Notes under the pieces: generated by a model | What the model was told of the DNA's origin: nothing | The model's input: the letters and a program-made list of their open reading frames with translations, nothing else | Databases searched by the model: none | Translations under genes and position numbers: made by a program | Assembly (NCBI GenBank): GCA_026874595.1 | Contig: CM049308.1 | Location: forward strand, 25,384,367-25,448,366 | Length of the DNA: 64,000 nt | Source: Sipunculus nudus | Taxonomy: Eukaryota > Annelida > Sipuncula > Golfingiida > Sipunculidae | Direction: 5' to 3' | Shown here: one piece after another, positions 42,700 through 57,215 of the stretch | How positions within the stretch are numbered: the stretch's first letter is position 1 | Layout of the letters: each line of letters starts with the position of its first letter

Positions 42700-43430
42700 T
42701 GATAGAAAGGCAATACATACAAACAATTTATACAAATAATTTCAGGATATTTATTAAACTTTTCATGTAAATATTTTTTTAAATTTGTAATTAAAATGAC
42801 AAAAATACAAAATATTATTGTCTTCATAAAAAATAAATGGTCATCATGAAAAGGCAATACATGCAAACAAAGACATACAAAGGAAACAAATATGCAAACT
42901 AAACGTGGTCCAAAATCCCAATCACTGCTAGAGATCCTTAATATTGAATTTCATATCAATTATAATATTAAATTTTCTATTGTTGTATATCCATACGTTC
43001 AGAATATATATTAAACTTATCATGTAAATATTTTTAAAATATGTAATTACAATTACAAAAATACAAAATATAATCGTCTTCATAAAAACTTTAAATGGTC
43101 ATCATGAAAAGGCAATACATGCAAACAAAGACATACAAAGGAAACAAATATGCAAACTAAAAGAAGTCCAAAATCCCAATCACTGCTAGAGATCCTTAAT
43201 ATTGTGTTTCATATCAATTATAATATTAAATTTTCTATTGTTGTATATCCATACGTTCAGAATATATATTAAACTTATCATGTAAATATCTTTAAAAATA
43301 TGTAATTACAATTACAAAAATACAAAATATAATCGTCTTCATAAAAACTTTAAATGGTCATCATGAAAACGCAATACATGCAAACAAAGACATACAAAGG
43401 AAACAAATATGCAAACTAAAAGAAGTCCCA
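42700..43430. repeat. ~258-bp tandem repeat inside the Harbinger
   Basis: The phrase GCAATACATGCAAACAAAG followed by ACATACAAAGGAAACAAAT recurs at about 42855, 43111 and 43371, with a partial earlier copy near 42709. The last two full copies are nearly identical, so the expansion is younger than the transposon genes around it. It ends just beyond the 3' end of the MADF gene. Confidence 0.88.
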
Positions 43431-43466
43431 AACACTAGGAGGGATCCTTTGTCATCAAACAGGTTC

Positions 43467-48606: not shown

Positions 48607-51600
48607 TCATACACATCTGTTGTAGGGCTGTTTAAATTCTCCAAATTCATTATACAAATTTCCGATATACGCATATGTTTCTGAAGAATTTTCAACATTC
48701 TTTGTGGAAGCTTTCTCACACTCTACCAAATTTTCGCACTGTTTCACGTTATTCTTTTTTTCTAACGTTTTTTTAAGAAAATATTTTTCTGTCAGTTCTG
48801 AATCCTCCAGCAAAGTTAGAATAGATTTTTTAAAATGTGGTTCTTGAAACCACTCAGGTTTCCCGCCCCATAATCCTTTAGGTACCGTGCAGTTACAATG
48901 TGTCCAGTGGTCGCGCACACATAGGAATGGTACATCCTGCTCAATTAACCTTTGGGTTATGTCATAATCTCTCTCCGACAATCTGCTGTTTGCATCTCGT
49001 ATTAGGAAAAACTCAATGTCAGGATCATCGGCCACTAGGAGGCGCCACATGCCAGGCGGAATGTCGGTGCTGAAAGGATTAATTTCTCTTACGTCCACAT
49101 TCAACCGTACCAGTGATCGGATGATCTGATCCGGAACAGCCAAGGGACTTTCAGGAACAGAAACATAAACTCTGAGCGTCCATCCAGGGAACACAACCGG
49201 AAGAAGCTGGGCGTTTCTAATGGCGCCGTACGTGTAGGATTTGTCGTTTCCGTACAGTGACATGCTGACGACCTTCTTTCCATCAGGAACCAGTCTTGAC
49301 CGGTTAGACGCTTTATACTCGACATACCTGGAAGAGAACTTTAAACATGTATGTTGTCTAGGGTTAGACACTTTATTTTCGATATACCTTGAAGAGAACT
49401 GTTAACGTATATATTAACTGAGGTTAGACGCTTTATACTCGATATACCTCGAAGAGAACAGTTACCGTATACAATGTGTGAGGTTAGACACTTTTAACCC
49501 GATTTACCTGAATGAGAACAGCAAACGTATACTTATATATTGTCTGAGGTTAAACACATTTTCCTCGATATCCCTGGAAGAGAACTGTAAATGTACATAT
49601 TGTCTAGGGTTAGACCCTTTGTACTCGATATACCTGGACGAGAACTGTACACGTATATATTGTCTTTGGCTCGACCCTTTATACTAAAACAAGATGAAAG
49701 TTATTCCTTAAGTTCAATCAGTTGCAAAAGTAAAAATAAGTGTTAAGAGGATTTTGAAACATTTTAGTGTAATAAAAACAGGCTTACGAACTAAATAATA
49801 TTGAATTAGGGTCGTTCAGTGCGCGACAATGCTGCATTGCGCAGGTGAGACAGCACAGGAAGTATAATACGTTTGTCATCCCTGAAGAAAAGCGGGATAA
49901 AGAAGATAGCTGTGTAGACTTACATTCCCTCATAGACTTATTTGAAAGCTATTGTACACCGAAACATAATGTCACGTTGGAGAGACATGTCTTTAACACA
50001 TGGGTACAGAAACCTGGTGAAACGTTTGATCAGTTTATGACGGAACTGAGGATTTTAATATAGAACTGTGAGTACTCAGAACTCAAAGATGGTATCTTAA
50101 AAGACCGTATGTTGAAGGGATCAGAGATAAACCCTTCGTGCTAGACTTCTGAGAGAGACTAATCTAAGTTTACATATGTGTATAGATTGGTGTAAAGCAG
50201 CTGAAGCTTCCTCACAACACATGAAGGCTTTGTCTACAGAACCATGTCAGGTTCATTCTGTCATTTCCCAGAACAGAAGAAGATTCCGCGGTAGAGGTTG
50301 TGGCTATGCAGGTAGAGCCTACCTAAAGGTCAAGGGGCCAGTAAGCCATCTAGGAATCCTAATACAAGTACACAAGTATGCACCAGATGTGGCTTTCAGC
50401 AACATGATGTAGGCAGATGTCCAGCCATGGGACGGAAATGCAGATTCTGTGGTAGACTAAATCATTTCAGCAGGATGTGTAGAAATAAACATCAGCTGGT
50501 GAGAAACCCATCCTGGAGACAAGTGCACATTGTTAGTGATGAGACTGTGATTGACTCTAATGATTACTAAGATGAGTTTACTACTGACTCTGTAACTGAT
50601 GGTTCAGATGATGCTTGGATTATTCCATTACATATAAATGATGTTATTATACCAATGAAACTGGACACAGGGTCAGATTTGAATATTCTGGGTTCAAAAG
50701 ATTTTCGTCCGTTGTTGAGTTATCCCAAGTTGCATGATTGTAACATAAAGCTGACTGGTTATGTTGGAAGTAATATAGCCAATTAAAGGTAAAGCTATAT
50801 TAACTGTGAGACACAGGGGCCAATGTTATAAGTCAACATTTATGATATTTGAGGTGATGTTACTCCAATTCTGAGTAGAAATCCTTGTGAAGAATTTGTT
50901 TCGATACATGGAGTGCTTGCTTTTGACAATACACCAAATGAATATAGATATGTTGTTAGTGAAAACCATGATGTATTTAGAGGTATAGGTTGTCTTCCAG
51001 GTAAAGTCAGGATCAGGACACGTGATGACATTGAGCCAGTTGTAGAGCCTTGTAGGTAGGTGCCTTTTGGTCTAAGAAGTCTTAAAGAAGATTTAGATAG
51101 GACGGAGTCCATGGATGTTATTTGCAAGGTAACAGAGCTTACAGATTGGGTTAGTTCTTTGGTAATTGTATACAACCCAAATGGAAAGCTAAAGATAGGC
51201 TTAGATCCTAGACATTTGAATCAGGCTATTTGTAGGGGACATTATAATGTTCCTACCAGAAAGGAAATCCAATCAAAGGTTGCAGGGGCAAATTATTTCT
51301 CAAAGCTTGATGCATTAGTGGTTTCTGGAAATTGAAGCTAGATGAGCCAAGTTCACTATTGTGCACATTCAGTACACCATATGATAGGTCTAGATATAAA
51401 AGACTTCCGTTTGGAATATCATGTGCACCGGAAATATATCACAGAACTATTCATCAGTTATTTGAAAATGTCACAGGTGTTGATACATCTATGAATGACA
51501 TTGGGGTCTATGCTAGTTCTAAAGAAGAACACGATAGGCTTCTCAAACAGGTTTTTGAGATGGCACGTAGTGTAGATCTCAAGTTCAACAAAGAAAAAAT

Positions 51601-54501: not shown

Positions 54502-57215
54502 TTCTGTTTTTTTTTTCTCGAACTTCTCAGGAAAACAACGAATATGCAGCTTTCAGTCACTTGTTGAATAATACCAGCTCATTACAAAGCTGTTTATCTG
54601 AAAGAACAGTTTATATCCCCGGTTGCAACTAGTGTCATATATATACCAGTGACCTTCAGAAAGGCACGATGTTTGGAGTTTTTCTTGTCCATCTATTGAA
54701 TAGGATTTGCCGTCAGTATATTTAATGCATACGTAAAGGGATAGTACATCTTACCAAAGTAGAAATATGGATCCACACAAACATAACTCAAAAGTGTAGA
54801 TATCACACCAACCTGTGTATGAGAATTCTTGATTTTTTCTCCACGTCTTTGAACGTTAGCCTGTTTTCATCAAACAGCTGATACCGCCTTCCATGTGCCT
54901 CAGTATGAGACACAGTAACATTCCCTAACTTTGCAGTACGGTTTGGCAAATATATATTAGTGATCCAGTCATCTGCATACCACGCCCTATATGTGCGAGG
55001 GTAGTACACACCAAATATCTCTATATGCGTTCTGTGTGTAAAATCGTAGGTTAAAATTCCTGTATTTCCCGTGTAGAAAGTGGGTCCAACCACGCCGACA
55101 TTTGGCGGGCTAAAATTCCGGAGTTTCTGAATAAAATGTTCCGTCCAACCAGATGACGTGAACTTCGTATCATCATTCACTCGGTAAAAATACTCGGCGC
55201 CGTCAATGTAAGCCTCCATGCAGGCGGCGTTCTGTGCCCAAACAGGTTTCATAGAGTCAGGAAACGTCAACAACTGCAGACTTATGTTCTTGTTATAAGC
55301 GCAATTCCTATGTACTACATCATTAAACGTCTCATTGAACAACTGGTGGCCGGTCTCGTTGGAAAGAATCGGGTCATCGAAGTCATAAGCTATGTAAAAA
55401 TGATAGCTATATCCTATACTAACTGTCTTGCAAAATGACGGTAAAAAAGCACTGAATATTTCTGCTGTTGACATGTGTTTCATTATGCCCTCAAAAGCAG
55501 GTCCGCGAAAGGAGATGCCCATACAAACCCCAATAGGTACATAATGTTTGTATTTTCTAATATATCCTCTCTGTCGGTACATATCAGCATGAAGTCCATA
55601 TGTGATGAAATACAAACAGATGTATGTACACGTGGCTAAAACTGCAAAAACGAAAAAAACCTTTTTTATTCCAATCCGTAAAACGGCTCTGGTTGCTTCA
55701 TCAGCGGGTCGAGAGACTGAAAACGAAACCAGAAAATGAGTTAGATCATAGCAAGTGTCCAGACATTGAACAAATCTATACATGTTCACCTGCCTACACT
55801 CTTCTATAATGGTTAAAAATCAACGGAAGTAAAATGTTACGATGCACAGGAAAGCACAGTCCTTCATCAAATTAAAAACACAAGACACACGGGGTAGAGA
55901 AGACTATAACGATGTACAGGACATCAAAGTCCTTTATCTAATGAAAAGAACACAGGACACAGGCTAGAAAAACCAGTGTTGTACATTACAGCAGTCCTTT
56001 ATCCGTTTAACTTACAGGACACATGGTGGAGATAAATAACGATGTCAGGACATCAAAGTCCTTTATCTAATGAAAAACACAGGACACAGGCTGGAAAATC
56101 CCTAAAATGTACATAGCAGCAGTCCTTTATACGTTTATCTTAAAGGACAAACGGTGGAGATAACGATGTACAGGACAGCAGTCCTCTATCTTATGAAAAA
56201 CACAGGACACATAGGGTGGAGAAAACAAAAACACGACACATATGGTGGAGCAAACAATGAATATGTACAGGGCAGCATAGTATTATTAAATTAATTAAAT
56301 GAAAAACACAAGACACACATACGGTGGAGAAACCAACGATGTACAGGGCATCACAGCCATTAATGTAATGAAAAACACAGGACACTTAGGGAGCAGAAAG
56401 TAACAATTTAACAAGGCAGCTGAGTCCTTTATGTAATTAAAACAGAGGACGCACAGGTTGGTGAAATCTATGAAGATGTACAGGGCAGCACAGTGCCTTA
56501 TCTTATTAAAATTACAGGACATACTGGGTTGAGAAAACTATAACATTGATCAGGGCAGCACAGCCTTTAACCGATTTTAAACACATTACACACGCGGTGG
56601 AGAGAAAACAGCGATGTACTGGGCAGCACAAAACATGTACTTCTGAAAAAGGTTTAAGGAAAATAGCGAAAACATGATTTTTACAAGCTAGAGTGACTCT
56701 GTATAACAGAAAAAAAGTTTCAGGGGCCAATATATAATACCCATGCCTGCAGGTATCTGTATAACAGAAGTTTAAGGAAATGCAGACTGTAAGATGATAA
56801 ACCTGGATAATGATGTGATATGTTCTTGCGTCTTAATACCACCTTAAGGTTTCTGGTCTCAAAAATGAAAATCTCACAGTTACACAACTAAAAAATAAGT
56901 AAAAGGTAGGAGCATTTCTCCTGACTCAAAATATTTAGATATTCCGTACAATTGTAAAATATTCTGTGACTCGCAAATTGTGATTTGGTTATAAATTCTT
57001 GTCCTCTACAATGACTAAGACCCGTTTTATCTTTGTCCCTTGTGCAAGGAATGTCAAATCGTGACCACGATAAGTTATATACCACCCCTGCCAAGAAGAA
57101 TGTGCTCGTAGCAATACAAATACTGAGAATAGAAAAACTACTTCAAGTAGACCATAACAAGTAAAAAACCTCAATTTAATTAAAACTTACCACCGTCTGA
57201 TGTAACCGTCATCAT
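48607..57215 (-). CDS. Type II membrane protein with two glycosyltransferase-like modules
   Basis: Three minus-strand exons fit by phase: 57215-57191 (ATGATG start, donor GTAAGT, phase 1), 55716-54813 (acceptor CGTTTTCAG, donor GTTGGT, phase 2) and 49327-48607 (acceptor TTCTCTTCCAG, stop TGA). They total 1650 nt, 549 residues. An AATAAA lies at 48515-48510. Residues about 28-50 form one membrane span after a short basic tail, the topology of Golgi enzymes. The first lumenal module (about 85-300) has Trp-Ala-Gln-Asn, FYRVNDD (metal-site-like, residues 189-191), VGVVGP, HRTH and ADDWITN. The second (about 325-500) has GAIRNAQLLP, FPGWTLRVYV, MWRLLVADD and LIRDANSRL. Family resemblance points to glycan transfer in the secretory pathway; donor and acceptor are unknown. 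Position 423 is Asn where related enzymes usually have Asp, and the C-terminus after about 500 is low-complexity and may be shortened. A possible upstream 5'-UTR acceptor lies near 57286. Confidence 0.82.
49303..49690 (-). repeat. 60-bp minisatellite containing the exon 3 splice acceptor
   Basis: Six units carry (plus strand) GGTTAGAC(A/G)CTTTATACTCGATA and ACCTGGAAGAGAACTGT. On the gene strand each holds a pyrimidine-rich acceptor ending in AG followed by G. The AGs are at 49329-49328, 49389-49388, 49449-49448, 49509-49508, 49575-49574 and 49635-49634, spaced 60, 60, 60, 66 and 60 bp. The first unit is the true intron 2/exon 3 junction, so the repeat includes about 25 coding bases (residues 311-318). 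Reading from the second acceptor is open into exon 3 and would add 20 residues; from the third and fourth a stop follows. Confidence 0.9.
49830..53990 (+). mobile_element. Mag-type Ty3/Gypsy retrotransposon, dead, in intron 2
   Basis: Gag, protease, reverse transcriptase, RNase H and integrase remnants occur in the usual Gypsy order on the plus strand, antisense to the host gene. A purine tract (about 53783-53793) is followed by a likely 3' LTR of about 200 bp (53793-53990) that includes an AATAAA near 53902. No matching 5' LTR was found before gag, so the copy is 5'-truncated or the left LTR has diverged. It lies wholly within glycosyltransferase intron 2. Confidence 0.85.
49845..53560 (+). 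pseudogene. Gypsy gag-pol remnant
   Basis: Visible pieces: gag core (49845-50063), two zinc knuckles in tandem (C-X2-C-X4-H-X4-C twice, about 50371-50487), protease KLDTGSDL (about 50658-50681), reverse transcriptase (about 50940-51640), RNase H (about 51885-52110), and integrase with its zinc-binding part (about 52545-52660). The integrase core has its three acidic sites in ATDL, YSDNGP and NGQLE (52715-52980). A C-terminal basic domain follows (about 53262-53400). Many stops and frame changes interrupt it, for example near 51060 and 51320 in the transcriptase. The catalytic pair normally read as MDD is MND at 51491-51499. The layout and double knuckle fit the Mag/SURL lineage (family knowledge). 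Not functional. Confidence 0.87.
53991..54812. other. Intron 2 start with (AT)n microsatellite
   Basis: Intronic. An AT run lies at about 54440-54498 and produces an Ile/Tyr repeat in a spurious ORF. Nothing else recognised. Confidence 0.6.
55838..56630 (-). repeat. ~70-bp tandem array in intron 1
   Basis: Units of the form ACACAGGACACA(N)GGTGGAGAAAAC, AACGATGTACAGGGCAGCACA and GTCCTTTAT(C/G)TAATGAAAA recur about eleven times. The array fills much of the 1.5-kb intron between the first two glycosyltransferase exons. Copies differ by point changes and small indels. Minus-strand ORFs here (56191-56522) are repeat translations. Confidence 0.88.
56631..57184. other. Rest of glycosyltransferase intron 1
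   Basis: No recognisable feature. ORFs at 56512-56730 and 56888-57174 on the minus strand lack coding character. Confidence 0.5.

Follow-up and report, generated by a model that had tools for sequence, protein, structure and literature searches.

A 60-bp tandem array copying a splice acceptor in a multi-copy gene of Sipunculus nudus, most probably an old boundary-spanning duplication

Minisatellites spanning an exon-intron boundary have been named mirages in amphioxus, where the units in Adh3 are 10-72 bp long (PMC3087553) and the globin genes BflGb6 and BflGb9 are among those affected (PMC3087553, PMC3902484). In BflGb6, the 3' end of an intron and the 5' part of an exon are repeated, one haplotype having 6 units and another 3, and splicing at such sites is, according to the authors, seemingly undisturbed (PMC3087553). 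Imperfect 60- and 108-bp repeats are likewise described over splice sites of PGBD5, with TnC named too (PMC3902484), and human paralogues are reported to carry variable internal tandem repeats at exon-intron boundaries, the number of which differs by paralogue (PMC2812944). In human CBS 844ins68, the more distal site (a "donor" in the wording of that paper) is reported to be strongly favoured, so that normal mRNA is made (PMC2630376), and the polyubiquitin gene UBC is described as a dual-specific splice-site array with demonstrated splicing (PMC10809524). Here we describe an array of tandem 60-bp units at the boundary between intron 2 and exon 3 of a gene on the minus strand of a 64,000-nucleotide stretch of the Sipunculus nudus genome (assembly GCA_026874595.1, contig CM049308.1, positions 25,384,367 to 25,448,366; hereafter the window, in which all positions below are counted). 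The array is, in our judgement, probably an old mirage, that is, a tandem duplication over the intron/exon boundary that pre-dates the split between the window gene and the paralogue that also bears an array, with later drift in the window gene and trimming in other paralogues.

With the exons and intron numbered as in the first-pass annotation, the minus-strand end of intron 2 consists of six tandem units, 60 bp each except for one of 66 bp, every unit combining 34 bp of intron end with 26 bp that copy the exon start. Tandem Repeats Finder (TRF) delimited the repeat at 49302-49685 with a period of 60, 6.3 copies, and 75% matches, and the identity at an offset of 60 (0.677) exceeded the maximum found at any period of 20-149 in 500 dinucleotide shuffles (0.378). 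Direct reading placed AG|G acceptors at 49327, 49387, 49447, 49507, 49573, and 49633, spaced by 60, 60, 60, 66, and 60, which together with TRF and the shuffles upholds the six in-frame units of the first-pass annotation; its statement that the second acceptor opens a 20-residue extension and the third and fourth lead to stops also agrees with the reading frames. Thus, unit 1 (49302..49361) holds the authentic acceptor, CAG|GTATGT at 49327, and unit 2 (49362..49421) holds AAG|GTATAT at 49387, from which an open frame leads into the exon and adds 20 residues, as well as a TCTAAC (49363-49368) 37 bases ahead of the authentic AG. Unit 3 (49422..49481; GAG|GTATAT at 49447) runs to a stop, and the 66-bp unit 4 (49482..49547; CAG|GTAAAT at 49507) meets TAA at once. 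Unit 5 (49548..49607; CAG|GGATAT at 49573) and unit 6 (49608..49667; CAG|GTATAT at 49633) both read into the unit-4 stop just after 49507, and a partial unit 7 (approximately 49668..49685) comprises the exon-derived portion only, its branch motif lost (TCGAGC). Judged by its anatomy, with the boundary set by homology, the array fits the definition of a mirage, in which a tandem unit spans an exon-intron boundary and copies a splice signal. Like BflGb6, it repeats the intron 3' end and the exon start; unlike the amphioxus mirages, it has every acceptor in frame, and in contrast to the BflGb6 units, reported as 81-100% identical, its units differ by about 26% and also occur in a paralogue.

The exons on either side were placed by comparison within the gene family. 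The terminal coding exon (exon 3; 48610..49327, minus strand) was identified by homology and by a match of its predicted structure to a GT-A-type fold; in the model, residues 1-34 fall below a predicted local distance difference test (pLDDT) score of 50 and the domain matches begin at residues 30-38. The upstream coding exon (exon 2; 54813..55819, minus strand) lies in an open frame of 54806-55819 and ends in the donor CACAG|GTTGGT at 54813. For neither window exon was there a Pfam match at E 1, a Pfam search of the members of both family alignments returned only stray hits, one or two each, to unrelated families, there was no PDB profile match, and PDB sequence searches gave no usable result. 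The gene is a multi-copy one with a predicted glycosyltransferase-type fold, an assignment made from the fold only, and to that extent the earlier naming of exon 3 as part of a glycosyltransferase is borne out. Across the genome searched (1.43 Gb, 153 contigs), the family gave at least 65 matches to exon 3 and at least 59 to the upstream exon, fragments included. AG|GT was found at the same donor codon in all 21 loci in which a match of at least 66% identity extends to the end of exon 2 (two re-fetched copies were left out, and L056, 85% identical over 69 residues, stops short of the exon end). The acceptor codon position was common to 24 of the 30 exon-3 family loci fetched (pattern AG|[G/A]TA), the pattern being unmatched in L019, L020, and L031-L034. 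Moreover, in an intronless homologue (L065, on C4) the two matches are 37 residues apart, where 49327 predicts 37 and 49387 predicts 57. The junction from 54813 to 49327 first proposed for this gene is consistent with these shared codons and this linker, and we take 49327 to be the ancestral acceptor, mainly on the evidence of the paralogues. The intron so defined is 5485 bp long, versus 520-2730 bp in four paralogues.

The distribution of the repeat among the paralogues, hereafter W (the window gene, L005), D (L002/L008, at C3:41684882-41687813), E (L003/L007), F (L004/L009), and G (L006), carries much of the argument. A whole-genome DNA search, by a tool that skips very common words, found the repeat in the window and in three paralogues, always at exon 3 and four places in all; dispersal of the repeat elsewhere in the genome was rejected within the limits of that tool. 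Among the 30 family loci, TRF detected a boundary-crossing array only in W and D, the latter with five units and a partial one. AG is present in all six units of W and all five of D. E and F each hold a single unit and an exon-derived piece of another, and G showed no copy, its single match (47 bp) lying where its own exon begins. The exon frame is open in the paralogues having 1.4 units or no extra unit. The allele-length instability of mirages was compared here between paralogues only (6.3 copies in W and 4.8 in D by TRF, about 1.4 in E and F, and no extra in G). As in the human paralogues, repeat number varies among paralogues at an exon-intron boundary; there, transcripts are reported to support new introns, whereas the W repeats are older and known from sequence alone. 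CBS 844ins68 differs in having one extra copy, polymorphic in people, against the five extra copies of W seen in one assembly.

Identity among units was 74.2% in W and 76.7% in D, and W units matched D units at 74.6%. Since the W units are no more alike mutually than they are to those of D, the array is old, and recent homogenisation is not evident. The 5' intron outside the array was 84.7% identical between W and E, 81.8% between D and F, and 76.4% between W and D; the unit identity is below that of the W-E and D-F introns, and the expansion therefore appears to predate both of these splits. The shorter forms in E and F most likely arose by contraction, and in G, whose 5' intron aligned with that of W over 136 bp at 69%, the units were either lost or never present. 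In the one assembly seen, the unit divergence of about 26% and the lack of evident recent homogenisation make copy-number differences between individuals less likely. The exon-3 tree groups W with G, the 5' intron pairs W with E and D with F, and exon 2 of W is closest to that of F (90%); because these three disagree, the exon-3 tree was not used for the history of the array.

The proposed account starts from the anatomy, paralogue distribution, and divergence, which were established directly, and from the authentic acceptor, which was established by homology. The boundary duplication would have expanded before W parted from D, and the array would then have drifted in W and been trimmed in other paralogues. 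The spliceosome would mainly join 54813 to 49327, with the extra units behaving as intron and any occasional leaky use leading mostly to stop-containing mRNA. TNTAAC, a plausible animal branch point, occurs in every unit some 37 bases ahead of the following AG; the chromosome-9 relatives L010-L013 have TTTAAC at -33, E keeps TCTAAC at -37, and F keeps TCTAAT at -36. With less confidence, we suggest that the authentic acceptor takes its branch point from the exon-derived TCTAAC in the unit next to it; this would be the reason why the trimmed E and F retain a piece of the upstream copy. The array thus seems to belong to the known mirage kind, and its main interest may lie in the paralogue series, where about 5, 1.4, 1.4, and no extra units would form a natural series on the tolerance of the spliceosome for copied acceptors.

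Several observations weigh against this account. Using an acceptor matrix built from 17 family acceptors, we scored the 272 AGs of intron 2, among which the six array acceptors ranked 1, 3, 4, 8, 9, and 10; the highest-scoring unit acceptor, 49573, reached 15.0 and the authentic 49327 only 9.6, the leave-one-out mean of the family being 12.5 (sd 4.6). As the extra acceptors score like or above 49327, exclusive use of 49327 is not implied by strength. In the nine extra units (W2-6 and D2-5; all units, 11), AG and TAAC were unchanged in all 54 cells (p 0.0009-0.0012), and none of the 49 single-copy changes hit them (p 0.01); with the partial left units added, the joint p became 0.004-0.007 and the single-copy p 0.04-0.12. 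Joint conservation of AG and TAAC hence exceeds the prediction of inert drift and may be taken as a hint of use. AG alone gave p 0.07-0.12 and TAAC alone p 0.01-0.07, the branch motif was picked after inspection of the units, further invariant columns exist (e.g., +19/+20), and a second branch-point candidate occurs at -15/-16 in many copies. The suggested branch-point step is itself weakened, since the D motif before its authentic acceptor is TATAAC, outside yUnAy, and 8 of 24 family acceptors lack yUnAy at -15 to -50. The linker length is not fixed either, because a second homologue (L066, on C1) has 19 residues where 12 would be expected via 49327 and 32 via 49387, fitting neither, though nearer the former. 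Finally, the closest paralogue of W is F by exon 2, E by the 5' intron, and G by exon 3, so that conversion between copies is likely; it would cloud the dating, and the order of events is not firm.

Among the other explanations, a working set of alternative acceptors, in which 49387 would give a protein longer by 20 residues and the upstream units would give stop-containing mRNA that lowers output, survives best and is nevertheless unlikely. The ranks of the six acceptors speak for it, as does the fact that 49387 is in frame and that D repeats the pattern of one productive extra acceptor (1 of 4, compared with 1 of 5 in W); the extension would also fall in the low-confidence stretch ahead of the folded domain in the predicted structure. 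The inter-acceptor segments, however, were open in 6 of 9 cases, where divergence of 15-25% would leave 44-58% of them open (p 0.15-0.43), and because chance keeps drifting units open in about half of cases, the open 20-residue extension lends no support to a function. Over the nine extra units, differences at exon-derived codon positions 1/2 and 3 were equal (1.57 vs 1.57; all 11 units, 1.79 vs 1.57; W2-6, 0.57 vs 0.86; D2-5, 1.00 vs 0.71), and coding selection on the extra units was rejected for this equality. AAG and GAG in units 2 and 3 are the weaker acceptors by consensus, and E, F, and G are without a full extra unit. That each unit keeps AG|G was rejected as evidence of use in view of the p value for AG alone and of D5, which carries AG|C. 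The suggestion that proteins of varying length, or a tuned output, result from the extra acceptors is consequently unsupported, the open frame being no more than chance would give in about half of cases, coding constraint being absent from the units, and the frame staying open in the trimmed paralogues. Any use of the extra sites would link the number of repeats to both output and the length of the protein; the extra acceptors give no firm sign of use as judged from their letters, and the array as it stands is most likely an old relic.

A reading in which the 60-bp units are selected, complete 3' splice-site cassettes (TNTAAC, pyrimidine tract, AG, and mostly AG|GT) and the array is a splice-site ratchet or buffer appears improbable. 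The upstream exon might land on any unit and be spliced again downstream in 60-nt in-frame steps, with the stops of units 3-4 as an output valve. We also consider very improbable a dual-specific or recursive splice-site array, in which AG|GT would serve as both acceptor and donor and the intron would be removed in 60-nt in-frame steps. AGGT is present in 5 of 6 W units (the authentic and 4 of 5 extra) and 4 of 5 D units (the authentic and 3 of 4 extra); against this, the G and T following AG are absent from the invariant columns, and GTATAT is a poor donor by consensus. UBC is reported to show that such arrays can be spliced in this manner; as in W, its repeat length is divisible by three, and AGGT marks the repeat boundaries, in W those of most units; in UBC the repeats are coding monomers, in contrast to the mostly intronic units of W, read here from the DNA (PMC10809524). 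An assembly artefact is scarcely credible, for although tandem repeats are prone to misassembly and one assembly was seen, an array related to this one is present at an independent locus and about 26% unit divergence makes the units easy to assemble.

Other features of the family and the locus were seen. On C9, a tandem cluster of fragments (G000:C9:26134261-26152683, minus strand) comprises more than 10 consecutive short matches, mostly to residues ~187-265 of the exon-2 protein, and L010 and L011 (C9:16127376 and C9:16174660) are exon-3 copies at near-zero tree distance, forming a very recent duplicate pair. Within the window, the intron just past the array holds a stretch at 49880-50300 (plus strand) that, read by eye, we presume to be gag-like. 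At 55906-56211, immediately upstream of the open frame of exon 2, there is a 128-bp repeat in 2.4 copies, and a 258-bp repeat of 2.7 copies with 94% match, far less diverged than the acceptor array, lies at 42741-43432.
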